A stretch of 45,738 nt of DNA from IMG/VR virus record IMGVR_UViG_3300023084_000040, positions 1 to 45,738 of that record, one strand, 5' to 3'. Made by a program: the position numbers and the translations under genes. The notes under the pieces were generated by a model, which saw only the letters and a program-made list of their open reading frames with translations, was not told the DNA's origin and searched no databases. Source of the stretch: a virus. Positions within the stretch are counted from its first letter, which is position 1. Each line of letters opens with the position of its first letter. Shown here one piece after another: positions 6,237 through 38,622 of the stretch.

Positions 6237-7127
6237 ATGGCTACAGTAAATACTACTTCCATTCTTGGCTCTGATTCGATTTCTGCATCGAGAACAACTA
6301 TTAATTCAAATTTCCTTACTCTGGAGAATTGGATTAATAACTATAACACTGTTTTTGGTCTAGATACTGTCAATGGAATCATTAACCTATCGGGTGCTTC
6401 AACGGGAAGAATTTCTGCTAAAACTGGAAAGTTCGATTCTATTATCGTACCAAGCGGGGGAACAGCGTTAGCTCAGATTAATTCATCTGGTGCTGGATCT
6501 TTTACAACCGTTTCGACTACCAACTTAACAGGAAGCGGGACAATCAGCTTTGGTTCAGGAAGCACTTTAACACAAAGTGGAACCTCTACTTTTTCTGGAA
6601 CGACAACTTTAAGTGGATCTACCACATTAAATAACACAATGACCTTGGGTCCAGTTGGTAATTTTGCCTGTGGAAACACTGTTGGTGCTAGTGGAGCTAC
6701 AGCGGGAACAACATTCCCTTCTTCCGCAACCGGTGGCGGTGGCGGTAGAGGAACTTCGTCTGGTAATCCTTATGTTATCACAGCTCAAGAAGATGTGATT
6801 TATGCACAGTGTTCTTCCGGCTTCTATATGAGTGTTGGAACTGACGGAGCAACAGGAGCTAATTTACCTGCTGGTTTAAGAATTACCATCGTAAACACAG
6901 AAACTTCTGCTGGTTCTATTAAAACCGGTGTCCAGGGATCAAACTATACCGGCTTTAATACAGCTAGTGGATATGGTCAATTCCCTTCTACCGGAATTAC
7001 TGTTGATGCCAACAGACCTTATCAATCTTCTATTCAACTCCAATGGGAACCAAGGATCGGTAAGGATAGCGGTAGCCAAGAAGGATCTTGGGTAGTACTT
7101 GGATCTTCAAATATGTCTTTTGCATAA
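6237..7127 (+). CDS. Short tail-fibre-like protein
   Basis: A 296-residue protein rich in Gly, Ser and Thr. Its N-terminus contains RTTINSNFLTLENW, matching a helix-like R-x-x-(I/V)-N-x-N-F pattern also found in the two collagen-like fibres at 18521 and 20035, so it may be a shared attachment segment. Residues ~95-140 are a run of short T/S-G repeats (for example SGTTTLSGSTTLNNTM), as in triple-stranded beta-helical fibre shafts. The C-terminal ~120 residues look like a globular tip. It is preceded by a GATATATA box and followed at 17 bases by the next structural gene. Confidence 0.65.
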   Translation: MATVNTTSILGSDSISASRTTINSNFLTLENWINNYNTVFGLDTVNGIINLSGASTGRISAKTGKFDSIIVPSGGTALAQINSSGAGSFTTVSTTNLTGSGTISFGSGSTLTQSGTSTFSGTTTLSGSTTLNNTMTLGPVGNFACGNTVGASGATAGTTFPSSATGGGGGRGTSSGNPYVITAQEDVIYAQCSSGFYMSVGTDGATGANLPAGLRITIVNTETSAGSIKTGVQGSNYTGFNTASGYGQFPSTGITVDANRPYQSSIQLQWEPRIGKDSGSQEGSWVVLGSSNMSFA

Positions 7128-7144
7128 TAAAAAAAATTAGATAA

Positions 7145-9355
7145 ATGGCAAAAACTCCATTTATAAGGCCTCTTCAAGTACAGGGTGGAACTTTCTACGC
7201 ATTTTCTTCTGCTGCTGAAGATCTGTCTTTTACGTTTAACAATTCGGTTGATAAGTTCAAGTTTTCAAAATTTGCTCTTCTTAACATCCCAGATATTAAT
7301 TCTGGTGATCCCTTGGGTAATAGCATTAAGCTAAATGCTCCAGATAGTGCCTTTTTGGATTATGCAACAAGTGCTGGAAACATTATTACTGGTAATGCCA
7401 ATACTGATTTCTCACAAAGTTTCCAGAGCTACTGTTTGAATGTTGAAACTACAATCCTAAGTGGGGATGATTATGATCCCAGCCTAAAGCAAAATATTTC
7501 CGAAAGGGTATTTTTCAAATGGCTTAAGGAAGTAGGTGCTATAAGATACCAACCAGCATCCTCGGATCAGGTAGTTGCTACTCTAGATCAAAATACTGTT
7601 ATTACTATAAATGACTTACCTTCCACCCAGAAAAGGTATGTTGAAGGTGACCCCTCTGGAGGAACTGGATCATATGGATTAGTAGGTTCAACATATAATA
7701 GGGTAGTTCAGTATATTGGTAATCTTGATATTGTAAACTCTGTCAAGAACAACAACAACACTTATTCAGAAGTGTATGTTCACGTTCCGACTAAAGACGG
7801 TAACACACCAACGGTCCTTTTTAAAAATGTAGTTGATTCAAATTATTATCCAGATTTCCAATGGACGAATAACCCAGCGGATCCTTTGGATAAAGAATAT
7901 TTGACCGGGAGATCTTATGATGAATTAAATCCGAGCGGGTTAACCAATTTAGCTATCTTTGATGATGATGTTTTAGGTTCGCCGAGTGTTACGTTCTCTG
8001 ATACCACTGACGGATCAACAGGAAGCGGTAACTGGTATGCCCCTAGGGATACAGCAAACACATATTTCACTGATTCAACATTTGTTGATCCAACTTCTCT
8101 TATTATTTCAAAATCTGTTTCTGGAGCAACAGCTGGTGTTGGATTTCAGAAATATGTAAGAACCAAATTAGATTCAATCGGAATCGATTTCGACCCGGAT
8201 TCTTATAAACAGATTGTTGATGATGCATCAATTTCAACATTAGAGGAGTTCAACTCTACTTCTATCTCAGAGGATTTCGAGTTTAATGCGGTGCTTATCT
8301 ATTATGATGTCTATGACCCAGCAGATCCTACAAATTCAGCCACAAACCTTTATGGGGTTTTATTCCTGGACGATGTGCAGACAACTGGAACTAATGTTTA
8401 TAGCATACCTAGATTCCAAAAGTACAAACCAAATATAGTTACCAAGTTAAATGGTAACTCTTACGGTCTAAAGCTAAATATCAAATTTGATGTTGATATC
8501 GATCAGACTGGGGTTGAGCAGGCAATCAATGATTATTCCCCATTCTCGCTAACGATGTTTATGGATGCTGTGAATGTTTTACAAGATGCTTCAAGCACTC
8601 TTAACAATAACGCAGCAAGTTATATTGATCTGGAAAGAAGAGTCTCTGAGATGGAAAACTTGCTACTTACACAAGACACCTCTACAACATTGGATAGGAG
8701 AATTACAAGCTTGGAAAGCTCCTATGCAGCTAACCAGGCCCTTTTCAACAACACCCAATCTGTAATGGGATTGATTACTCAAAATTATGAGTTAATCCGG
8801 GCTATTATCAATAATGAGACTTCAGTTGAGATCTCATACAATTTGGATACTATCAAGCAAGGTTCTGGAGTTATAGTAAATCGATCGGTACCTAACCAGG
8901 TTATTATCGAAAACAATAACCAGGAGTTTAACATCGGACCTAATAATGGAACAGTCACCTTACAAAATACCTCTTCTAACAGAATAGGTCTTAAAACCTT
9001 TGGTAACTATGTAAAGCACGTAAATAATGGTACTCCAATAACTCTTACCTCTGATCTAACGATAAGAATTGATGACTCTGTCGTTAACTGGAAGAAAGGA
9101 CAGGCTATGAAATTCAGCTTTGGGGACCAAATTATTCCTGGCGACTTCACCATCAATTTCTTAACTAATGCGGTTGGAAAATATCCAATTAGCAATCCTA
9201 GCGGGGTAGCTTATTCTAACTTGATAATTTCCCTGGTAGATTCTGATATTTCTTCCTATGAGTATATGCCAGTTATTGAGATCATTTGTATCGATAACGA
9301 GAATCTGATCTTCCAGGCTGATATAGTAGGAAAAAGCTTAACAAATAATGGATAA
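7145..9355 (+). CDS. Virion structural protein (tail/baseplate), unknown family
   Basis: A 736-residue protein. The N-terminal part is globular, including FFKWLKEVGAIRY near residue 120. Residues ~475-560 form a predicted coiled coil with L-E-R-R and L-x-x-R-I-x-x-L-E heptads. The C-terminal ~150 residues are beta-rich (for example GSGVIVNRSVPNQVIIENN). This globular, coiled-coil, beta-tip layout is typical of trimeric tail or baseplate proteins. No enzyme motif was seen. It lies between a fibre gene (17-base gap) and another large structural gene (16-base gap) in an evident late operon. Confidence 0.65.
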   Translation: MAKTPFIRPLQVQGGTFYAFSSAAEDLSFTFNNSVDKFKFSKFALLNIPDINSGDPLGNSIKLNAPDSAFLDYATSAGNIITGNANTDFSQSFQSYCLNVETTILSGDDYDPSLKQNISERVFFKWLKEVGAIRYQPASSDQVVATLDQNTVITINDLPSTQKRYVEGDPSGGTGSYGLVGSTYNRVVQYIGNLDIVNSVKNNNNTYSEVYVHVPTKDGNTPTVLFKNVVDSNYYPDFQWTNNPADPLDKEYLTGRSYDELNPSGLTNLAIFDDDVLGSPSVTFSDTTDGSTGSGNWYAPRDTANTYFTDSTFVDPTSLIISKSVSGATAGVGFQKYVRTKLDSIGIDFDPDSYKQIVDDASISTLEEFNSTSISEDFEFNAVLIYYDVYDPADPTNSATNLYGVLFLDDVQTTGTNVYSIPRFQKYKPNIVTKLNGNSYGLKLNIKFDVDIDQTGVEQAINDYSPFSLTMFMDAVNVLQDASSTLNNNAASYIDLERRVSEMENLLLTQDTSTTLDRRITSLESSYAANQALFNNTQSVMGLITQNYELIRAIINNETSVEISYNLDTIKQGSGVIVNRSVPNQVIIENNNQEFNIGPNNGTVTLQNTSSNRIGLKTFGNYVKHVNNGTPITLTSDLTIRIDDSVVNWKKGQAMKFSFGDQIIPGDFTINFLTNAVGKYPISNPSGVAYSNLIISLVDSDISSYEYMPVIEIICIDNENLIFQADIVGKSLTNNG

Positions 9356-9371
9356 AATTTTATAAACTAAA

Positions 9372-12300
9372 ATGGCATCAACACAAAATTCAATTAGTTC
9401 TCTAGTAGCTCAGTTTTTAAGACTGCAAAAAAATTCATTGGAGATAATTAACGGTCTAAATGAGGTAGCAACCTCTACAAATGAAAATGTGCAGATTGAG
9501 TTGCTAGACGAAAACGGTTTGCCATCTTTCGCAAGTATTCCTGCTTATGGATATTTAAGGAGTGAGATCGAGCGTCTCGATTCTAATATTCAGTCATTAG
9601 CAGGACTAGGTGATAACTTTGCTACCGTTAGAAATCCCGATGGTACATACAGCCAAGTTTATAAATCGCAGCCATTAAAGGACCCAACTCCACTGTCGAA
9701 CCTTCAGGTACCAAGTACATTCTCAACAAGGGATAATTGGTTCTTCGAAAGTTTTCTTAGCCCGTTGCTTTATGTTACAATAGATGTAACTGGACAAATA
9801 GCTGACGATGCTGATCGTGTAAGGGTTAAAAGAATTATTGCAAACACCAATACAGACGAGAAGAAGGCCTATTTTGATAACAACCTAAACGGAAGGAACG
9901 ATCTAACTGAACAAGGATTTATCAATGAACTTGATGATGCTGGGATAACCTATTTTGTTGATGAGGATAATATCGATCTTCCTTTGAGATCTATTAGAAA
10001 CAAAGGTTCGTTTGGTGTACTTTCTTTTTATGATGACGTGGTAACTATTACAGATGCTAACGGAAACCAAGTTGAAGAAACCAGAAGGAATTACAAGCTT
10101 AACACTGTCAACTACACAGACACAACATCTAATGTACAGAATGGAAGGACATTAGCGGTTGGAGATACGCTGTTAACTAATGATGGAACACGCTATTTGA
10201 TAACCTCTGTAAATATCCAGGAAACCTCTGTACAACTTAAAAGATCCTCTGGATACCAGCCAGTACAAATCGGAGACAATAATTTGACTCTTGAATCTTC
10301 TCAATTAAGTCCTAGAGTTATTGAGGTGAATGTAGGGTTTGACGAAAGACAGGGTATTTTCTTTAAAAAGATTGATGACAATTTTAATGTTATTGGTTCC
10401 TCTTGGTCAACGGGTATAGTGATTTATAGTAATCAACTTACTACAAACACTAATTCGGGAGTTCAAACATTAGAACAATTTTACCTAACCTCCGTTGCCG
10501 ATTTGGGTCAGATTTTCCTTGGCATGGCGAAGGAGAAAAAGATTAACGCAATAAATGGACTTGTGCCTGATAGCCCTTCTGTTGCTGCTACAAATTTTAG
10601 GGTTGTCCAGGTAAATACACAATTAACTGAAGGCACCGATGTACAAACCTTAAATGATAAGGTAGCTCTAAAATCTACTTTACAATCGGAGATTCAACAG
10701 ATTGATAATTCGATTAATCAGGCCAGGACAGATCTTAATTCTGTATCATCAACTAATGTTTTAGCAAACAATGTTACAAACATTTCTCAAACATCATTAA
10801 ATACACAGGCTTCAAGTTCTGCTCTTGCTTCGCTTAATTCTCTAACTCAACAGAGAGTCCAAAAGCAACAATTACTTTCATCGGTTGTGAATGATATTAC
10901 ATCAATAGCAGAGACTAATCCTGCATTGACTGTGGAGCCAAAATATAGGGTAAGAGGTTTTTGGCCAATCCCACCTCCTAAATCAAGTACCGTGACTGGA
11001 GATCAGAGTGTGATTCAGTTTATTATACAGTATAGGTACCTATCGGAAGCTGGAGCTTCTCCTGCAGTACAACAGATAGGTTACACTGACGAAAATGGGC
11101 AGGAAAAAACTGGGGCCTTTTCTAATTGGACTGAGATAAAATCAGAACTCAGAAAAAAAGTATATGATCAGAATACTGGTACCTACGTTTGGGCTCCGGA
11201 GGACACTGATAATGCAGATGCTACCAACATCAATCAGCTTGACATTCCAATCACTAAAGGTGAAAGAGTTGAAATAAGAATTAAATCTGTTTCAGAAGCT
11301 GGATGGCCAGACAATCCACTAACATCGGATTTTTCTTCTCCCGTGGTGGTAACGTTCCCAGAGGATCTTTCAACACAAAGTACCACACAAAGTGTTAGTA
11401 CTAACCTTAAGGATGAAGCAATACTTGCAATTCAGGAGGATCTTAATGCTAAAGGGATTGATGGTCTTTTAAATCAGCAGGTACAGACCGCAGATAAAAC
11501 CTACTACCTTGGAACCTCGTCTATTTTAAGCGGATATTATGATAGCTCTGGTAATCCTTTGGATCTTTTCCAAAAATTGAACGAGCTCCAGGATCAAATT
11601 AATTCTCTGCAGGCTACAATTGGTAATGTTACTGGATCGCTAGAGGTTTACGTCGTTAGTGGATCAAATTCTCAGCTTGTTTCGAATGGATCAACAGTCA
11701 ATCTAAATGCTGGCTATTTTGATCAGATCTACCAGAACGCTTCAACCTCTGATGCAGGTAAGATAGCTTCAACTGTTTACGAGATCAAAATTATTAATAC
11801 CTCTGCAGGTTTATTAGAACTTTCTTCCATACTACCTGGTGGGTTATCTACTCTTGCTGGTACAAGCTCTACTTATTCTTTACCGGATGGATATACAACT
11901 AATTTAAGATATGGTGAAGTACCAATTTCAGTTACTTCTTTGAGTACCGCTGATATTATACCAACTGGATCAACTGGTGGTGCTAATAACGACTCATTCA
12001 AAGAATTTAGACAAGCACCACCATACGCTTCTGGTAATTCTAACAGTCAGTTTATCTACCCAAGGTGGAAGTCAGTAGGCTTTGATGCTCAGCTTTATAA
12101 TGTACCTGCATCTTTTTCTGCATCTTATGACTATACCGGGGATTCGAGTGGATTGCCAAGAAACGGAAGTCAGCTTTTGCCTTTTGATCCTACCGATTCT
12201 TCGGTTCCTACCGCATCAGGAACTGACGCAAATGTTTGGAATGGAACATTTTCTGGTGTGACCGGAAGTTATACTGGAAATGGAAATGGAACCCTAAGCG

Positions 12301-26269: not shown

Positions 26270-26295
26270 AAACCTTCCTTAATGGGAGGTTTTTT
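26270..26295 (+). terminator. Rho-independent terminator ending the structural module
   Basis: The stem AAACCTTCC pairs with GGGAGGTTT (one G-T wobble) across the loop TTAAT, followed by a T tract. It separates the structural operon from the resolvase/RuBisCO-like operon, whose GATATATA box begins 6 bases later. Confidence 0.8.
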
Positions 26296-26300
26296 GTGTT

Positions 26301-26308
26301 GATATATA
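26301..26308 (+). promoter_or_regulatory. GATATATA box upstream of the resolvase/RuBisCO-like operon
   Basis: The octamer lies directly after the terminator and 25 bases before the TTG start of the resolvase gene. It is the only candidate promoter for the whole six-gene operon to 30488. Confidence 0.5.
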
Positions 26309-26333: not shown

Positions 26334-27005
26334 TTGAAAACACTAGTCGGAATAGATTTTTCCCTCAATTCGCCAGCATTTTGTATTTTAAGAGAAAACC
26401 AATTTACTTGGGGTTCATTAACACGGAGTGACCGGACTGCAGAATCACTTAAGAAAAATGCTAAAAAACCTTACTATGTTTTATCTGAAGACAAAACGGA
26501 AGACTATGTTCTTATGTTTATGTCAAAGGATAAAATGCCAGAAGACTACTCGGAAAGGGAAAGAATAAAGATAGATTATTTCCAGGAGCTCGTTGATGAA
26601 TTTTGGTCTGAAATAGAAAATATCTGTGCAGGTGATGATATCATTGTAGCTATGGAAGGACTAAGTTTTGCCTCTAATGGTAATGCTTTGATTGATATCT
26701 CTATGGCCACAGCTCTACTCCGTAAGAAGATAGTTGACCACACAGGTAGCGATAATTTCTACGTTTATTCGCCAACTTCTATCAAGAAGTTCGCTTTTAA
26801 GGGAAATGCAAAAAAGCACGAACTTTATAATTCACTTCTTGATCGCAAATTTCCAGAAACTAATTTAGGGTCTTTCACTAGTATTTTAGAAGAAAATAAG
26901 GACGAATGGATAACTCCCTCCGGTAATGTAAACAAGCCATTGGATGATATTATAGATTCGACCTGGATATGTTTATTTTTATATGACTCAATCAAAGAAG
27001 GTTAA
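26334..27005 (+). CDS. RuvC/RNase H-fold Holliday junction resolvase-like nuclease
   Basis: A 223-residue protein with a TTG start. The acidic residues of a RuvC-type active site are visible: D8 in VGIDFSLNSP, E108 in IIVAMEGLSF, and D204/D205 plus D208 in KPLDDIIDST near the end. A P-T-S-I-K-K-F segment at 147-153 is also typical of phage RuvC-like enzymes. It should cut four-way junctions or branched DNA formed during recombination-driven replication, doing the job of T4 endonuclease VII. It is first in the operon and overlaps the nucleotidyltransferase by 23 bases. It is expected to serve replication, not the sugar genes it shares a transcript with. Confidence 0.8.
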   Translation: MKTLVGIDFSLNSPAFCILRENQFTWGSLTRSDRTAESLKKNAKKPYYVLSEDKTEDYVLMFMSKDKMPEDYSERERIKIDYFQELVDEFWSEIENICAGDDIIVAMEGLSFASNGNALIDISMATALLRKKIVDHTGSDNFYVYSPTSIKKFAFKGNAKKHELYNSLLDRKFPETNLGSFTSILEENKDEWITPSGNVNKPLDDIIDSTWICLFLYDSIKEG

Positions 27006-27714
27006 CATTCTTATTCCTCTCGGAGGTGCTGGAAGGAGATTCAGCGACGCTGGATACCTACAGATAAAACCATTTATAGACGTCAGCGGAGAAACGATGA
27101 TTAGGTCAGTGATTAAAAACCTAAATCATCAAGATGCACACTTTGTATTTGTGATAAACGAGGAATATATTTCTCCCACAGAATTTGAATCACATATATC
27201 AGACATGGGAATATCGTTTGAGGTTTTCTCAACCCCAACACTAACACAAGGGCCAGCTTCAACAGTTCTCTTTGCAAGTCAGTCGATTGATAACGATTTA
27301 CCCCTTATTGTTGTTAACTGCGATCAGATTATTCTGGATTTCAATCTGGACTTCATTTTAGATTTTGCAAGAACTACGGGGTGTGATGGATTGTTGGGAT
27401 GTTTTCTTTCCTCTTCTAAAAAGAACAGCTATGTTAAGTTAGATCCAAACGGAGAGGTCTGTGATGTGAAGGAAAAAATTGTGATTTCCAACATTGCTAC
27501 TAACGGGTTACATTTTTGGAAGCATGGTAAATACTTTGTGGAAAGTGCGGAACAAATGATAGCAGCAAACGATCGGTACAATAATGAGTTCTATGTTGCA
27601 CCTACCTACAATTACATGATAAAAAGTGGAAAGAAAATATTGCCCTTCTTCTATAACCTTCACTTTCCGATAGGTACCCCAGAGGACCTGGATAAATTTT
27701 TAAAGTTGGTTTAG
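26983..27714 (+). CDS. Sugar-phosphate nucleotidyltransferase-like protein
   Basis: A 243-residue protein. The signature loop LGGAGRRF (residues 13-20) with K29 in IKPFIDVSGETMI is the nucleotide-binding motif of the NTP_transferase family. VVNCDQI (D114) fits the metal-binding aspartate. It should join NTP and a sugar 1-phosphate (or a similar phosphorylated compound) to make an activated donor plus pyrophosphate; the substrate is not predictable. It overlaps the resolvase gene by 23 bases and is followed after 3 bases by a cupin, then a RuBisCO-like protein. This suggests a small pathway building an unusual activated sugar. Confidence 0.8.
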   Translation: MTQSKKVNILIPLGGAGRRFSDAGYLQIKPFIDVSGETMIRSVIKNLNHQDAHFVFVINEEYISPTEFESHISDMGISFEVFSTPTLTQGPASTVLFASQSIDNDLPLIVVNCDQIILDFNLDFILDFARTTGCDGLLGCFLSSSKKNSYVKLDPNGEVCDVKEKIVISNIATNGLHFWKHGKYFVESAEQMIAANDRYNNEFYVAPTYNYMIKSGKKILPFFYNLHFPIGTPEDLDKFLKLV

Positions 27715-27717
27715 TTT

Positions 27718-28041
27718 ATGGAAGTTTATAGAATTGAAAATATGAAGGGAGGTTGGTATGCTGGAGATTTCTCCCCAGTAGCTTACCAAACTAGTGATTT
27801 TGAGATTTGTTATAAAAAGCACTTCAAGGGCGAAGAGTGGCCAAAACATTACCATAAGGAAGCGGATGAAATAAACTTCCTCAGATCAGGTAAAATGATT
27901 ATACAAGGGAAGGAACTAAATTCGGGTGATGTGTTTATACTAAGAAAAAATGAAATTGCTGATCCTGTATTTTTGGAAGACTGTGAGGTCTTTATAGTTA
28001 AGACCCCCTCGGTTCCTGGTGATAAATTTGTAATTGAATGA
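27718..28041 (+). CDS. Single-domain cupin
   Basis: A 107-residue protein. The cupin motif 1 core is H44-Y-H46 with E51 (KHYHKEADEIN), followed by a Gly-bracketed strand (LRSGKMIIQGKELNSGDVFIL). These residues normally bind a metal ion. Small cupins of this type act as sugar isomerases or epimerases, or as non-catalytic binders. It lies between the nucleotidyltransferase and the RuBisCO-like gene, overlapping the latter in an ATGA arrangement, so a joint role in the same sugar pathway is likely. The precise reaction is unknown. Confidence 0.75.
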   Translation: MEVYRIENMKGGWYAGDFSPVAYQTSDFEICYKKHFKGEEWPKHYHKEADEINFLRSGKMIIQGKELNSGDVFILRKNEIADPVFLEDCEVFIVKTPSVPGDKFVIE

Positions 28042-29273
28042 TAAGCATTTTTAAAAATAAGGCGGATTTTGATACATCCCAGTATTTTATAGTCAAATAC
28101 TTTTTGGAAGCTAAAACTTCTTTGAGGGAAGCTTCCTGGAATTTGGCTATAGGTCAAAGTATAGGTAATCCGAATAATAGGAGCGAGTGGGAAACCGATG
28201 AGATGTTTGAAAATCACAGTTGCTTTATTCTTGCAAACGAAGAAGATCTTACCCAGCTAAAAGAGGGCGAGATCGAGATAGCTTTTCCTCTAGCAAATCT
28301 TAATTTGGAAGAAGATGGGATCTCTCAAATACTTTGTCATATAGCTGGTGGTCAGGTTGACATAGAGGAAGTAAGACAATGTCATGTCTTGGACATTTCT
28401 TTGCCTGAGGATGCTGAGAGATCATTTTCTTTAAATCCTGCATATGGTATTGATGGATGGAGAAAATTTAATGACATAAACCAAAGACCTTTCTTGGGTG
28501 GTATAGTTAAGCCAAAGGTTGGAATGTCCCCTGAGGTTCTTCTTGAAGCTGTGAAGGAAATGGTTTATGGTGGTGTGAATTTCATCAAAGAGGATGAATT
28601 ACTTGCTAACCCTTCCCACTGCCCTCTTGAAGAAAGAGTACCTTTGATTTCATCTTGGTTAAAAGAGAATGCGCCCGACGTAATTTATTGCTTTTGCATA
28701 AATGGTGATAGTCCATATGCCTTAGAAAGAGCAAAATTTGTAGCAGATAACGGTGGGAACGGAATACACATAAACGTGTGGAGCGGCCTGGGAATTTATC
28801 GTGCTATTAGAAAGCAAAATCCAAATCTCTGGATACATTTCCAAAAGAGCGGAGATAAATTCTTTACTGACCGTAGGGCTCCAAACCACATTTACTGGCC
28901 GGTTTTGTGCAAAATCGCTGGTTGGTCCGGGGTTGATTCAATACATGCAGGAATGATCGGGGGTTATATGAGCCAAGATGAGCAGGAAATAAAAGATACC
29001 TTACAAACTCTTTGGGATTATAATATTGTTCCCGCTTTAAGTTGTGGAATGCACCCGGGACTCGTCGAGTATATTAATACAGCTATTAGCAGCTTTGATT
29101 GGATGGCTAATGTTGGTGGTGCTATGCACGGACACCCACAGGGAACTAGGGCTGGTGCCTTGGCAATGAGACAATCTATCGATGGAGATCGCGATCAGCC
29201 TGAATATAAAGCAGCAGTAGCAAAATGGGGTAACAGATGTTTCTCTGAAGATCTAGACTATCGAATATTCTGA
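28038..29273 (+). CDS. RuBisCO-like protein (form IV type)
   Basis: A 411-residue protein with the RuBisCO large-subunit fold. KPK at 158-160 aligns with K175/K177 (spinach numbering) and the carbamylation/metal triad is intact: K184, D186, E187 in NFIKEDE (K201, D203, E204). H267, H303, S335 and G360-G361 match H294, H327, S379 and G403-G404. Key carboxylase residues are changed: R295 to F268, K334 of loop 6 to Y310, and the E60/T65/N123 equivalents to G, N and H. It should therefore not fix CO2 but use Mg2+ and carbamylated Lys for enolisation, isomerisation or decarboxylation of a sugar-like substrate, as in other RuBisCO-like proteins. It is coupled to the cupin before it. Confidence 0.88.
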   Translation: MISIFKNKADFDTSQYFIVKYFLEAKTSLREASWNLAIGQSIGNPNNRSEWETDEMFENHSCFILANEEDLTQLKEGEIEIAFPLANLNLEEDGISQILCHIAGGQVDIEEVRQCHVLDISLPEDAERSFSLNPAYGIDGWRKFNDINQRPFLGGIVKPKVGMSPEVLLEAVKEMVYGGVNFIKEDELLANPSHCPLEERVPLISSWLKENAPDVIYCFCINGDSPYALERAKFVADNGGNGIHINVWSGLGIYRAIRKQNPNLWIHFQKSGDKFFTDRRAPNHIYWPVLCKIAGWSGVDSIHAGMIGGYMSQDEQEIKDTLQTLWDYNIVPALSCGMHPGLVEYINTAISSFDWMANVGGAMHGHPQGTRAGALAMRQSIDGDRDQPEYKAAVAKWGNRCFSEDLDYRIF

Positions 29274-29274
29274 T

Positions 29275-29709
29275 ATGAAGCTAATATCGCATAGAGGTAA
29301 TTTAAAAGGTCCAAATCCTGATAGAGAAAATACGATTGGCTATATACAGGAAGCTCTTGATCTGGGGTATGACGTGGAGATCGATGTTTGGATCTCTGGA
29401 ACATCAATCTATTTGGGACACGACTCACCAGAAACCAAAATACATCTTGCTTGGCTTTTAGAAAGGGGTGATAAGCTATGGATACATTGTAAAAACATAT
29501 CAGCTATGGTTTATCTGAAGGAATATGGGGATCTCAATGTTTTTTGGCATGAAAACGACAAAGTAACACTTACCTCCAAATCTTTCATTTGGGCTTTTCC
29601 GGGGATGCAACCAATTAGCAAAAGCATTGCTGTTTTACCTGAGATGTACGAGGAGAAAGTTGATAGTTGTTGTGGTGTATGTTCTGATTATATTGTGAAT
29701 TATTCATGA
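29275..29709 (+). CDS. Short GDPD/PI-PLC-like phosphodiesterase
   Basis: A 144-residue protein. The N-terminus has the family's catalytic H-R-G (SHRGN, H6-R7) and EN-T segment, then E35-x-D37 in DVEIDVW and H49 in LGHD. These are the metal-binding and catalytic positions of glycerophosphodiester phosphodiesterases. At 144 residues it is much shorter than the usual ~250, and the later barrel half is missing or much reduced, so it may be a minimal or specialised member. C-terminal cysteines (CCGVC) are odd. It follows the RuBisCO-like gene after one base and overlaps the next gene in an ATGA arrangement. Confidence 0.65.
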   Translation: MKLISHRGNLKGPNPDRENTIGYIQEALDLGYDVEIDVWISGTSIYLGHDSPETKIHLAWLLERGDKLWIHCKNISAMVYLKEYGDLNVFWHENDKVTLTSKSFIWAFPGMQPISKSIAVLPEMYEEKVDSCCGVCSDYIVNYS

Positions 29710-30488
29710 GAGTTGCATTACTACTTCCTGGTCAAATAAGGGAAGCTCAGGATTCCTTCCCCTTTATAAAGTCCGAAATTTTAGACAAGTACGATACTGA
29801 TGTTTTCATATCAACTTGGAATCCATCGGGTGAAATCAACCAATCTCTACATGCTGAAACTAAAGATCTAGTGGACTCCTTAACCATCGACGATCTTATA
29901 AAGATGTATTCTCCCAAGCACTTGAAGACCGACGATTTTGGTTCTGATGTGATTAAAAAGTTCATCGATAGGGCTTGGTCTTATGAGGGCTTTGGTCCAC
30001 AGACTGGCGAGATCAATCCAGTGTCTGTTTTTTTGATGTGGTATAAAATTAGACAAGCTTACTCCTTGATGGAAGAATACGAAATCCAGGTAGGTCAAAA
30101 GTACGATTGCGTCATCAAGGGAAGGATGGATATTAAGATCCACAATGAATTGAATTTAGAACAGGACCTGGATAAAATCAACGTTCCTCCTGGGTTTGAT
30201 TGGAAGGGTGGGGTAAATGATATATTGGCTTGGGGCGGCAGAGAATCAATGGAACATTACTGCAAAATGTTCGACTATCTGGAGGAGTATATTATATCCG
30301 ATATTTACTTCCACCCTGAAACTTTACTAAGATATCACATAGAAAGTTCTGAATTTGGTTTATCTAGGCCGTTTGTCAAAGTTTCACTCCGAGGTAAGAA
30401 TGTTTGGGAGACCGAAGTATCAGAAAACGAAATAGATGAAAAAAGTTTTGGATATATAATGTCTAGGGGAAACATTTGGGACACTTAG
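29706..30488 (+). CDS. Glycosyltransferase-like protein of a phage/surface-glycan family
   Basis: A 260-residue protein. It begins MRVALLLPGQIREAQ and has a strand-turn DVFISTWN (residues 32-39), then VIKGRMDIKI (R140-M-D142). This resembles GT-A-like families in which an R-x-D motif replaces DxD, as in hypothetical glycosyltransferases of phages and capsule loci. NDILAWGG and a HPETLLRYH segment fit acceptor and late catalytic positions. It is the last gene of the operon, so it probably uses the activated product of the upstream nucleotidyltransferase/RuBisCO-like pathway. A GATATATA box for gp32 lies within its last codons. Confidence 0.6.
   Translation: MRVALLLPGQIREAQDSFPFIKSEILDKYDTDVFISTWNPSGEINQSLHAETKDLVDSLTIDDLIKMYSPKHLKTDDFGSDVIKKFIDRAWSYEGFGPQTGEINPVSVFLMWYKIRQAYSLMEEYEIQVGQKYDCVIKGRMDIKIHNELNLEQDLDKINVPPGFDWKGGVNDILAWGGRESMEHYCKMFDYLEEYIISDIYFHPETLLRYHIESSEFGLSRPFVKVSLRGKNVWETEVSENEIDEKSFGYIMSRGNIWDT
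30451..30458 (+). promoter_or_regulatory. GATATATA box upstream of gp32 (inside the preceding gene)
   Basis: This is the only GATATATA occurrence inside a coding region on the coding strand. It sits near the 3' end of the glycosyltransferase-like gene, 71 bases before the gp32 start, so it may drive gp32 separately from the sugar operon. Confidence 0.35.
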
Positions 30489-30529: not shown

Positions 30530-31483
30530 ATGAGTAATTTAGACATTTTCAATTTGGATGCGGAAGCATTCGTAACGAAAGCAAAAAAGGAGAATTCAGA
30601 AGGAACAGAATTTTACAAACCATATCCGGAAAACGGAAAGGATGGAGTTTACAAATCGCTGATCCGTTTTCTTCCTAACCACGTCGATCCGACGAAATCA
30701 AAAATCCACAAGTACTACGTTTATCTAAACGATCCAACAACAGGTGATGGATTTCCAGTTGACTGCCCGTCAACGGTAGGAAAAAAATCGGTACTTAAGG
30801 ATATGTTCTGGAAGCTGAAAAATTCACATTCAGCAGCAGACCAAGAATTATCAAGAAGTTTTTCTAGAAAGGAAGACTACTACTCACTCATTCAAATCGT
30901 ACAGGATAAACACAATCCTGAGCTTGAGGGAAAAATTATGATCTTCAAATTTGGACGTAAGCTGAATGATATGCTCGAAGCACAGCTCAAGCCTGAATAT
31001 GGAGATTCTTGCAACCCTTACGACCTTTTCGAGGGTAAACTTTTCTCAGTACATACAAGAAAAGTTGGTGAGTGGAACAACTACGATCTTTGCTCATTCG
31101 TTGGTGATAGAACCTCTATCGAGATCAACGGCAAGAAGATGGCTAAGAATCAGGATGACATGAATGCAATCATGGAATACCTTAAAACAGGTCCTGATAA
31201 CCTCACACAATTTGAATACAAGGATTGGGATCAAAATACTACCGACCGTGTGATGAATGTTATTAAGAATTCAGTTCCTGACGGAAGATTAGTTAATGAG
31301 GTTTTAGGAGGTGTAAACCAATCTTCTACTACAACTTCATCTTCTAGTTCAACGAACGATTTCTATAATGAAGCTTCTTCAACAAAGGTAGGATCCGAAC
31401 CTGCAAAAGAGGATAAAGGCATCAGCCAACCCTCAGCACCAGAAACTTCATCGTCTCTAGACGACCTATACGCAGATCTCTAA
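30530..31483 (+). CDS. gp32-like single-stranded DNA-binding protein
   Basis: A 317-residue protein. Early in the core domain it has SLIRFLPN, matching the gp32 V-I-R-F-L-P motif. It continues with MFWKLKNS, EDYYSLIQIVQD and PELEGKIMIFKFGRKL, which fits the T4 gp32 segment around its G-K-V-F-K-Y-R-F-G-K-K. A Ser/Thr-rich linker precedes a short acidic end (SSLDDLYADL), like gp32's recruitment tail. The T4 zinc module (H64, C77, C87, C90) is not seen: only three scattered cysteines (C79 among them) and no C-x2-C pair. It coats template DNA and recruits replication proteins. It is followed by its own terminator. Confidence 0.85.
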   Translation: MSNLDIFNLDAEAFVTKAKKENSEGTEFYKPYPENGKDGVYKSLIRFLPNHVDPTKSKIHKYYVYLNDPTTGDGFPVDCPSTVGKKSVLKDMFWKLKNSHSAADQELSRSFSRKEDYYSLIQIVQDKHNPELEGKIMIFKFGRKLNDMLEAQLKPEYGDSCNPYDLFEGKLFSVHTRKVGEWNNYDLCSFVGDRTSIEINGKKMAKNQDDMNAIMEYLKTGPDNLTQFEYKDWDQNTTDRVMNVIKNSVPDGRLVNEVLGGVNQSSTTTSSSSSTNDFYNEASSTKVGSEPAKEDKGISQPSAPETSSSLDDLYADL

Positions 31484-36708: not shown

Positions 36709-38622
36709 ATGGCGGGAATAAATCACTTATACGACATTTATAATAAGAAGGGATCTGATTTTGTTAATCAGCTTTTTAATCGTTATGTAACAATTAACGA
36801 AAAGATGGACGGTTCAGCCTTCTCTTTTGAGAGGGATAAGGAATCTGGTAATTTCCGTTTTTATAGGAGAGACCAAAGAAATCCTATAACTCTAGTAGAT
36901 AGGACGCTCATGAAATATTATGAGAAGCCAATCCAGTATATTGAATCTCTTCCACCAAGCATACTTGAAAAAATCCCCAGAGGATGGAGATTTGGACTTG
37001 AGTATTTTTCAAACACCAAACCAGTAGAGATTTCATATGATAGATTACCAAAGAATAATCTGATTCTCTCCTATATCCACAAAATGGGTACTGGCGGTAA
37101 AATAGAAAGTACTATACAGGATAAGGAAGAATTGGATAATTGGGCAGATCTGATTGGAGTTGAAAGACCACCAATTGTTTTCCAGGGAGTGTTGGACGAA
37201 GATCAGAAATCTGAGCTTATGGAGTTTTTGAACACGCCGTTCAAAGATCTTGTTGAAAGGTTCAAAACACAATCTTTTGTTAGGTTTGTTATTAAGACCT
37301 TAAACCCGGATTTAACTAAAACTGCTCTTAACGACGACCTAGATAAGGATGTCGAGGGTATAGTTTTTAGATTTGGAGAGCTCGATGGAGATAGTGATAC
37401 TGTATTAGCCAAAATGGTGGATCCTATATTCACTGAAATAGCTAAGCAAAAGTTTGCTGACAAAAAGAGTAAAAAGCCTTCGGATTTTCTTGGAATCACA
37501 TTGCTTGATGTGATGAATTTCATTTTGGAAAAAGATCTTTCTGAATTTGAAGTTGAAGGTGAGTCTGAAGACGAGAGATACATTTCCTTTATGGGAGACG
37601 TATTTGTTAAATTCCTGGATGAATATGAGGAGAAGTATAAGGGTACTGATTTTGAGGAACCTGATTACTTAAAGAGGGATGAATTCAGACTGAATAAGGA
37701 AAAGATTAAAGACAGAAGAGTTCTTAAATATGTTGAGAAGGATGACTCATTTGAGTCTTTATTTAAACTCATTCTTAATTCCTTTAGGAAGATAAAAACT
37801 AGAGCTGGAGGTATCATCACCTCTGGGATGAAAGATCAGATGAATCTTTTAATCAAGGATATCAAGGATTATATTAAAAAACCAGAGAAGAAAGTAAACG
37901 AATCAAGGTTTATTAGCTTTGGTGAATTCAGAAAGGAAAACTCTCCTTCGGTTGAATATCTACAGGAGGAAGACGATTCAGATTCAAGTGATGATCCATT
38001 CTTCTCATACCAAGAATTTATTAGCAAACTAGAAACCATTGATAATGAGGAGATCCCGGCTGAGGTAGAAATGCTCAAGGAGAAAGATACGGAGGAAAGA
38101 AAACCAGTTAATGTTATAATGGGTAGATTCCAGCCTTTCCACCAGGGACATCTTAAGATGGCGAAGGATCTCATGGAGAAAAACGATCTCCCATCTTTTG
38201 TTGTTGTGGTTTATCCTGGACACAACAAGTCTGGAAAATCCCCATTTGATGAGGAGGCAATCAAAAGATATATGGATGCAATAGTTGCTAATAACGAGGA
38301 GATTGAAGGATATGTCCTTGCTACAAGAGGTCTTCTTGGGTCTGCTATTGCAAGACTAATAGACATGGGATATGACCCCAAGTTAATTGGTGCAGGCCCC
38401 GATCGAATAGACGACTACACTAAGCAGATAGACTATGTTAAGATGTCTGATATTAAGGACAAAATAAGTGATGACCTTGGTATTGTAGAAACACCAAGGG
38501 TAACGAGCGGTACTGAGGTTAGACAAGCTATGAAGGACCAAGACTTTTCTAAGTTCAAAAAGATGGTTCCAAAAGAGGTATCTAATCTTTACAACGACCT
38601 TATTACAAGCGTCAGGGACTGA
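36709..38622 (+). CDS. RNA ligase fused to NMN adenylyltransferase-like domain
   Basis: A 637-residue fusion. The N-terminal domain is a ligase-type nucleotidyltransferase: motif I E31-K32-M-D-G-S, a RFGLEYF segment, DVEGIVFRF as motif IV and LAKMVDP as motif V. K32 would bind AMP, so it should seal RNA or DNA nicks. A helical linker (about 240-460) contains two targeting-like segments (RFISFGEFRKEN and FFSYQEFISKLE). From about 465 the cytidylyltransferase-type signature GRFQPFHQGH is followed by SGTEVRQAM, as in NMNAT enzymes that make NAD+. The fusion could couple ligase AMP use with NAD+ resynthesis, but the link is inference. Confidence 0.8.
   Translation: MAGINHLYDIYNKKGSDFVNQLFNRYVTINEKMDGSAFSFERDKESGNFRFYRRDQRNPITLVDRTLMKYYEKPIQYIESLPPSILEKIPRGWRFGLEYFSNTKPVEISYDRLPKNNLILSYIHKMGTGGKIESTIQDKEELDNWADLIGVERPPIVFQGVLDEDQKSELMEFLNTPFKDLVERFKTQSFVRFVIKTLNPDLTKTALNDDLDKDVEGIVFRFGELDGDSDTVLAKMVDPIFTEIAKQKFADKKSKKPSDFLGITLLDVMNFILEKDLSEFEVEGESEDERYISFMGDVFVKFLDEYEEKYKGTDFEEPDYLKRDEFRLNKEKIKDRRVLKYVEKDDSFESLFKLILNSFRKIKTRAGGIITSGMKDQMNLLIKDIKDYIKKPEKKVNESRFISFGEFRKENSPSVEYLQEEDDSDSSDDPFFSYQEFISKLETIDNEEIPAEVEMLKEKDTEERKPVNVIMGRFQPFHQGHLKMAKDLMEKNDLPSFVVVVYPGHNKSGKSPFDEEAIKRYMDAIVANNEEIEGYVLATRGLLGSAIARLIDMGYDPKLIGAGPDRIDDYTKQIDYVKMSDIKDKISDDLGIVETPRVTSGTEVRQAMKDQDFSKFKKMVPKEVSNLYNDLITSVRD

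Follow-up and report, generated by a model that had tools for sequence, protein, structure and literature searches.

A phage gene cassette that links a RuBisCO-like protein to a nucleotidyltransferase, a cupin and a miniature GDPD-fold protein

To our knowledge, few jobs are known for RuBisCO-like proteins (RLPs), namely methionine salvage, the breakdown of apiose-type acids and sulfur-linked roles. Here we describe a cassette of five genes around an RLP in an IMG/VR virus record of 45,738 bases (IMGVR_UViG_3300023084_000040). The whole of this stretch was analyzed and is referred to as the window. Five open reading frames (ORFs) on its plus strand, at 26983-30488, encode in this order a nucleotidyltransferase (NTase), a cupin, the RLP, a miniature GDPD-like protein and a glycosyltransferase-like protein. 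Other loci are designated by L and a number.

The closest described relatives of the window RLP are the form IV RLPs (MtnW and the proteins of C. tepidum and R. palustris). Like these, it has the full fold (Z 37-38) and the metal/carbamate triad and has lost carboxylase residues, but it falls in a separate clade (support 100/99), carries a residue signature of its own and is associated with genes for an NTase, a cupin and a GDPD. Among the non-RuBisCO profiles, that of the 3-oxo-isoapionate-4-phosphate decarboxylase OiaX matches best, with 121.6 bits; this score is far under the OiaX cut-off of 700, and the residues at positions 177, 294, 295 and 334 differ. With regard to gene content, the glycan/nucleotide-sugar clusters of the cyanophages Bellamy, SynMITS9220M01, S-SM2, DSL-LC03 and B23 include genes related to the NTase and the GDPD, joined in Bellamy and SynMITS9220M01 by cupin relatives at E <= 1e-5. 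These relatives lie amid epimerase, kinase and glycosyltransferase genes. In contrast to the window, the cyanophage clusters are without an RLP match (tblastn at E <= 0.01 on 50,697 named phage records, from which records near the window may be omitted).

RuBisCO-type genes on viral contigs have likewise been described as rbcL auxiliary metabolic genes and, unlike here, were reported under carbon fixation. In PMC12607003, a viral contig sequence is placed among 'RbcL-like' proteins under carbon fixation, and rbcL is noted in randomly drawn IMG/VR viruses. PMC12615777 describes a soil viral rbcL that was active when co-expressed with rbcS, and true viral RbcL may therefore exist. A further report, in the sections available, lists 65 ocean (Global Ocean Sampling, GOS) RuBisCO homologues that cluster with no known RuBisCO, and mentions neither their gene context nor a function (PMC1821046). 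Overlap of these groups with the clade of the window RLP is plausible because the clade has SAR11 members. Literature searches on titles and abstract openings, with most subscription journals and preprints outside their scope, revealed no RLP tied to nucleotide-sugar or phage glycan genes and no account of an RLP pathway in phages or glycan clusters; PMC9875498 contained nothing of relevance. A preliminary description of the window knew of no phage pathway of such composition, and none was found in the literature searched.

The RuBisCO-like protein and its conserved neighborhood

The genes around the RLP were compared in 88 RLP loci (82 viral and 6 bacterial), which were grouped into 58 clusters at 90% RLP identity; ORFs under 60-70 amino acids are not listed in the counts. 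Within three genes of the RLP, an NTase is present in 51 clusters, a cupin in 44, a GDPD in 44 and a glycosyltransferase-like gene in 27. At least one of NTase, cupin and GDPD occurs in 56 of the 58 clusters and all three occur in 31, with NTase, cupin and RLP contiguous in 36. The viral clusters alone (n = 53) give 46 for NTase, 42 for cupin, 40 for GDPD and 51 for any of them, and the five bacterial clusters give 5 for NTase, 4 for GDPD and 2 for cupin.

A random-position control with 1000 trials was performed on the 56 clusters that have at least eight ORFs (the other two have fewer). The observed counts for NTase, cupin, GDPD and glycosyltransferase-like genes near the RLP are 49, 43, 43 and 27, compared with random means of 16.2, 13.1, 12.4 and 11.3 and random maxima of 28, 25, 22 and 20. 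Because some of the loci behind the gene profiles are also within these counts, 36 held-out clusters with no profile-building members were counted as well, and these contain an NTase in 33, a cupin in 27, a GDPD in 29 and any of the three in 35 cases. Chance clustering of the cassette genes is ruled out by the random-position control together with the held-out clusters.

Relatives were kept by similarity to the query, so that the rates of RLP at cupin and GDPD loci lean to window-like loci. Among the nearest cupin loci (best 80 of 437, of which 79 are usable, one having been dropped because it held no scoring cupin ORF), the RLP is found in 45 of 52 non-redundant loci and the NTase in 51 of 52. 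The cupin and the RLP look tightly linked. Among the nearest GDPD loci (best 80 of 586), the NTase is found in 58 of 65 non-redundant loci and the RLP in only 10 of 65.

A scan of IMG/VR with the single RLP sequence revealed 30 loci, and a profile scan revealed 342 stretches that encode RLP relatives. The best 80 of the 342, which were the ones kept, each share 50% identity or more with the window RLP. Viral scans for form I, form II and OiaX-like proteins, each with two short patterns and without a positive control, gave 228, 33 and 73 pattern matches, respectively, and zero relatives. In bacterial and archaeal genomes, five RLP relatives with 52-53% identity were found, three from SAR11, one from a Patescibacterium and one from a Crocinitomicaceae metagenome-assembled genome. 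A sixth (42-43% identity) came from a search of the order of one SAR11 seed. The bacterial RLPs are sporadic. With the seed included in each case, they occur in 2 of 297 genomes of the SAR11 seed's order and 1 of 299 of the Crocinitomicaceae seed's order (both at E <= 1e-80), and in 1 of 286 genomes of the Patescibacteria seed's phylum (E <= 1e-70). Many uncultured aquatic phages with differing backbones thus share the module with a few bacteria (SAR11, Patescibacteria and Crocinitomicaceae), and glycan genes often surround it. In locus L045, from the SAR11 seed's order, the RLP lies between two NTases (6866-10047); the NTase adjoined by a GDPD is strongly diverged, with 23% identity.

The window RLP scores over the PF00016 cut-off (113.4 bits versus 30.1), and its predicted model, with a mean predicted local distance difference test (pLDDT) of 86.7, shows the entire RuBisCO fold. 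The model aligns with the archaeal RuBisCO 2cwx over 381 residues, with a Z score of 39.2 and a root mean square deviation (rmsd) of 2.6. Residues are numbered here as in spinach RuBisCO, and their catalytic roles are those of that enzyme. In an alignment of 23 phage and bacterial RLPs (17 viral, 6 bacterial), residues K175, K177, K201, D203, E204, S379, G381, G403 and G404 are kept in every sequence, and E60, T65, N123, H294 and the loop-6 lysine K334 are absent from every sequence. Arg-295 is replaced by a lysine in 22 of the 23, and H327 is retained in 22. The clade signature is E60G, T65N, N123G, H294Q and R295K, with K334 lost and K177 kept; at the position of K334, different aligners place G or Y. 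As the loop-6 lysine, N123, T65 and H294 are lost, carboxylation of ribulose bisphosphate (RuBP) by the RLP appears unlikely. In the light of established RuBisCO chemistry, this pattern of kept and lost residues would fit metal-assisted enolization and argues against the addition of CO2 to RuBP.

Scores against NCBIfam models are 167 bits for rubisco_III, far under its cut-off of 497, and 114.5 and 85.6 bits for the two MtnW models, with cut-offs of 409 and 513.6. Membership of the RLP in MtnW or OiaX was rejected, its scores lying below the NCBIfam equivalog cut-offs. A carboxylase identity was rejected on the lost residues and the clade.

A phylogenetic tree was calculated from the 17 viral and 6 bacterial RLPs and 23 reference rows cut to the last 500 residues (RbcL, OiaX-like and MtnW-type rows). 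All 23 RLPs form a single clade with a support of 100/99, which falls outside the RbcL group. The 13 OiaX-like rows have S, A or N at position 177 and keep R295 and K334, unlike the RLP clade. The two MtnW-type rows, L092 and L093, are also apart from the RLP clade, both on long branches. Long branches in this tree (both MtnW-type rows, L045, L029 and others) may be misplaced. The only root is the midpoint; with it, the bacterial rows branch first, and phage L029 groups with the bacteria. The RbcL rows were chosen by Pfam match and are untyped by NCBIfam. Eight of the 13 OiaX-like rows were scanned, and one is over the OiaX cut-off. This row, L078, and L092, which passes one MtnW cut-off, anchor the OiaX and MtnW names in the tree; L093 passes none. 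Judged by its sequence, the window RLP is of form IV type, a RuBisCO homologue with substituted carboxylase residues that lies outside forms I-III, where the exclusion from form III rests on the missed rubisco_III cut-off, as form III is absent from the tree.

The partner proteins and their glycan-type surroundings

The NTase scores over the PF00483 cut-off (41.3 bits versus 21.2) and reaches no equivalog cut-off in the NCBIfam scan. The cupin is sub-threshold in Pfam, with 16.3 bits against a cut-off of 27, but its family profile matches solved cupins in the PDB with a best E value of 2.7e-5. Nine of the 16 cupin family members match Cupin_7 at E <= 0.01, and three match Polysacc_synt_C at the same threshold (best E 0.001).

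No Pfam family matches the GDPD-like protein up to E 0.1. The profile of its own family aligns with a solved GDPD at profile positions 3-55 (E 1.7e-4). The predicted model has a pLDDT of 95.5, and 137 of its 144 residues align to 1o1z, a GDPD of 226 residues, with a Z score of 10.4 and an rmsd of 3.2. The top structural matches are mostly GDPDs. Foldseek alone gives no PDB match at E <= 0.001, and the fold assignment is based on the second structural comparison and the family profile match, not on Foldseek. The residues H6 R7 G8, E35, D37, H49 and D50 are invariant in all 15 family members compared; they correspond to the HRG, ExD and HD residues that have roles in GDPDs. According to the model, the fourth cassette gene encodes a miniature GDPD-fold protein.

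The last cassette protein is related only to DUF7796, which is sub-threshold in the window protein. Seven of the 15 members of its family match DUF7796 at E <= 0.01, the window protein not being among them, and a PDB search with the family gave no match. The protein resembles cyanophage proteins, two of which are annotated as capsular polysaccharide biosynthesis proteins.

Twenty neighbor proteins from other loci were scanned with Pfam, and five had no match. The matches include NAD-dependent sugar epimerases, UDP-galactopyranose mutase, UDP-GlcNAc 2-epimerase and UDP-glucose dehydrogenase, as well as methyltransferases of the sugar-modifying TylF and FkbM types, an HAD-NTase fusion, a transaldolase-like protein and GT8. 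One methyltransferase family is present in 18 loci, and in 15 of these it lies directly 3' of the RLP. All three members of this family that were scanned match PF13578, two of them over its cut-off.

The NTases also differ in length. Next to an RLP, 42 of 44 are short (170-259 amino acids), and 13 of the 20 from loci without an RLP have 451-473 amino acids. The long NTases at GDPD loci suggest that phages have another sugar pathway, one that works without an RLP. A HAD-nucleotidyltransferase fusion of that length is encoded beside a GDPD gene at L010:3677-5038.

Organization of the locus and the insertion slot

The positions of the cassette genes and the features around them are given in Table 1. 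The spacing between successive genes, from the resolvase onward, is -23, +3, -4, +1 and -4 bases, followed by +41 bases to the gene of the single-strand DNA binding protein (SSB). The coordinates that the preliminary description had assigned to the five ORFs match the ORF listing, and its account of gaps of 1-3 bases or ATGA overlaps between the cassette genes agrees with these distances. The resolvase was identified as a phrog_159 match (E 7.1e-13).

Table 1. Features of the cassette and its borders in the window
Feature	Position	Strand	Remarks
Terminator-like hairpin	26270..26292	+	just 5' of the unit; consensus match only
GATATATA box	26301..26308	+	putative phage promoter for resolvase and cassette; 33 nt upstream of resolvase start
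RuvC-like Holliday junction resolvase	26334..27005	+	flanking backbone gene; overlaps NTase start by 23 nt
Sugar-phosphate nucleotidyltransferase	26983..27714	+	243 amino acids; PF00483
Cupin	27718..28041	+	107 amino acids; HxH...E metal-type motif; possible isomerase/epimerase partner
RuBisCO-like protein	28038..29273	+	411 amino acids; separate form-IV-type clade
Miniature GDPD-fold phosphodiesterase-like protein	29275..29709	+	144 amino acids; predicted from model and family profile
Glycosyltransferase-like protein	29706..30488	+	260 amino acids; DUF7796-related family
Next GATATATA box	30451..30458	+	within 3' end of last cassette gene, upstream of SSB gene
Single-strand DNA binding protein	30530..31483	+	phrog_224; right border of insertion slot

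A survey of 79 of 80 SSB loci, near-copies included (L392, with 30% identity, was left out), reveals the cassette between the resolvase and the SSB in 16 loci of the window's phage group, which includes contigs of up to 434 kb. The other 58 loci without a cassette or GDPD in the slot are mostly empty there or contain one ORF of up to ~200 amino acids. The exceptions are L347, which is cut off, and L337, where a further resolvase-like gene and a small ORF accompany an ORF of 266 residues. A GDPD gene stands alone in the slot in five of the 79 loci (L328-L330, L332 and L382). The nearest cassette-free relatives have SSBs that are 71-75% identical to that of the window. Between L123 and the window, the backbone genes are 72-90% identical and the NTase and cupin 69%, but the RLP is only 52% identical, a pattern that the exchange of cassette parts would produce. 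When the window is compared with L018, L004 and L015, the nonsynonymous divergence (dN) of the cassette genes is 0.08-0.39 and synonymous sites are at or near saturation. The cassette genes are under constraint; dN/dS ratios are unusable, since synonymous sites are saturated in most pairs.

The box at 26301 comes after the hairpin at 26270-26292. Terminator-like sites are no commoner in the region than by chance (2, compared with 3.8 expected from shuffles). The GATATATA box occurs nine times in the window versus 2.1 times expected, a number that was reached in none of 100 shuffles. Among 17 loci checked, near-copies included, 12 have the box 32-35 bases upstream of the resolvase. For the remaining five, L026 is without a box there, the longest ORF in L100 starts upstream of the box, and this check gave no resolvase candidate for L097, L098 and L102. 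Its enrichment across the window and its position upstream of resolvases indicate a phage-wide signal rather than one specific to the cassette, and the box is probably a promoter element of the window's phage group. The shared box of the preliminary description is thus real, but is not particular to the cassette. Sites in the window include 6195, 25761, 26301, 30451, 34830 and 38621, and six of the nine copies precede a gene start on their own strand by 14-79 bases. Elsewhere in the window, at 36709-38622, a 637-residue protein is encoded whose C-terminal part is cytidyltransferase-like; near its N terminus a KMDGS motif was spotted by eye, which we take to be nucleotidyl-ligase-like.

A possible surface-sugar pathway and its alternatives

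We propose, with a probability of roughly 0.6, that the cassette is a compact and exchangeable operon for the making and use of an unusual donor, a nucleotide-activated sugar or sugar-like compound, that would go into a glycan on the virion or the host surface. As the RLP is set among sugar-activating and glycan genes, it probably aids in building an unusual surface sugar and not in carbon fixation. The RLP, with its carbamylated-lysine/Mg site, would enolize a keto-sugar phosphate or sugar-acid phosphate and then either reprotonate it, resulting in isomerization or epimerization, or decarboxylate it. The cupin would carry the conversion through to a sugar phosphate that can be activated, the NTase would form the nucleoside diphosphate (NDP)-sugar, and the glycosyltransferase-like protein could attach it. 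Within the same branch of the glycan, the mini-GDPD may cleave a phosphodiester; the methyltransferase that adjoins the RLP in some other phages would decorate the sugar. This proposal draws on the observed gene order and its conservation, the clade, the active-site residues, the model folds of the RLP and the GDPD, the glycan-type neighbors and the single-slot unit; the reactions, the substrate, the order of the steps and the target are what we infer.

Several observations weigh against it. The tblastn search of named phage records described above revealed no RLP relative, and the cassette of the window adjoins DNA-replication genes. The phage origin of the glycan-rich contigs follows the IMG/VR classification, with backbone genes beside the cassette in some loci only. 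By its profile matches, "glycosyltransferase-like" is the weakest of the five identity labels. The GDPD goes with these NTases in general, for the most part without an RLP in the sequenced stretch, and is therefore not specific to the RLP pathway. The RLP-adjacent NTases are clustered (14 label changes compared with 26.7 after shuffling) but are not one clade, so that a single common product is unproven. A single NTase clade for all RLP loci was not found in a FastTree tree of 80 rows. Near the RLP, the cupin is absent from three of the five bacterial clusters, and in L125 and the truncated L030 NTase, cupin and GDPD are all absent within three genes. Locus L009 and its near-copy L011 contain an RLP-GDPD pair without an NTase or a cupin in the sequenced stretch.

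The preliminary description had read the five genes as a cassette for activating and attaching a sugar. The conserved gene set and the glycan-type neighbors support the core of this reading, and the co-occurrence of the genes, whose order it had proposed to search for across genomes, is indeed conserved, with any of NTase, cupin and GDPD near the RLP in 56 of 58 clusters. Less secure are the sugar nature of the substrate, the RLP reaction, the glycosyltransferase identity of the last gene and the destination of the product, and the GDPD does not belong to the RLP alone. Among the five identities that had been assigned, those of the NTase and the RLP hold above their cut-offs and that of the GDPD by fold; that of the cupin is probable from its family profile, and the glycosyltransferase has DUF7796 only. 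The cassette itself is real and more widespread than the preliminary description could tell, and it is a variant of the RLP kind.

Another conceivable target is the phage DNA, where the sugar would be put on a hypermodified base and the cassette would serve in DNA protection. This is consistent with the position of the cassette in the window's phage group, between the resolvase and the SSB, primase and helicase genes. Genome L001, whose RLP is 97% identical to that of the window, contains a strong thymidylate-synthase match and also a second, divergent synthase-like gene that could encode a pyrimidine hydroxymethylase. A homologue of this gene, 89% identical, is present in L007, and L113, whose backbone is a different one, likewise contains a second synthase-like ORF. 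Yet a search of 20 RLP phage records, which may be fragmentary, located the L001 gene in only 2 of them, counting its own record, and any thymidylate-synthase match, mostly with strong scores, occurs in only 6 of 14 records. No DNA-glycosylation family turned up among the proteins scanned, with no search aimed at one. As the same module recurs in bacteria and in other phages with glycan genes alongside, a surface or virion glycan is likelier than a DNA target, and we regard DNA modification as rather unlikely. A PDB search with the L001 synthase-like gene gave weak matches only (E 0.095 or worse). These divergent thymidylate-synthase-like genes, possible base hydroxymethylases, are designated L309 (G1183:C1:17000-18600), L311, L312 and L310 (G1193:C1:39500-41300).

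The RLP might also form a true C-C bond, by carboxylating an unusual sugar phosphate or by the reverse reaction, and thereby make a branched-chain or carboxylated sugar. In favor of this, it shares K175, K177 and the metal site with RuBisCO, and the best non-RuBisCO profile is that of a decarboxylase, OiaX. The loss of K334, the missed OiaX cut-off and the different residues of the 13 OiaX-like rows make this unlikely. A remnant of methionine salvage or of the methylthioadenosine (MTA) shunt, in which the RLP would be an MtnW enolase or a methylthioribulose phosphate isomerase with the cupin as its partner, recalls the pairs of RLP and cupin known from these pathways. It is very unlikely, as the RLP scores under both MtnW cut-offs, the two MtnW-type rows, though long-branched, are apart from its clade and no other salvage gene was noticed among the annotated neighbors. 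A carbon-fixation auxiliary gene (viral rbcL) that aids CO2 assimilation by the host would agree with the RuBisCO fold, the kept metal/carbamate residues and the description of viral rbcL as carbon-fixation genes in PMC12615777 and PMC12607003, but is very improbable in view of the five residues missing from all 23 RLPs, the rubisco_III score, the placement outside the RbcL group and the annotated neighbors, which include glycan genes and among which no phosphoribulokinase or small subunit was noticed, with no search aimed at them.

Returning to the proposed surface-sugar operon, the cassette is defined and is absent at the same place in relatives, and the question is therefore testable with one heterologous operon. 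The 342 stretches with RLP relatives, compared with zero relatives from the form I, form II and OiaX-like scans, indicate that carbon fixation is poorly supported where a viral gene has no more than an 'rbcL' label, which may alter the reading of viral metagenomes. We give even odds to the wider idea that a whole clade of the RuBisCO superfamily serves in nucleotide-sugar or glycan biosynthesis as an exchangeable cassette spread mainly by phages, which may explain many viral 'rbcL' genes. If true, many of the reported viral 'rbcL' genes would act on surface glycans instead of fixing carbon. With a clade tied to sugar activation, the RuBisCO fold would gain a further job, and the making of surface sugars a new kind of step.

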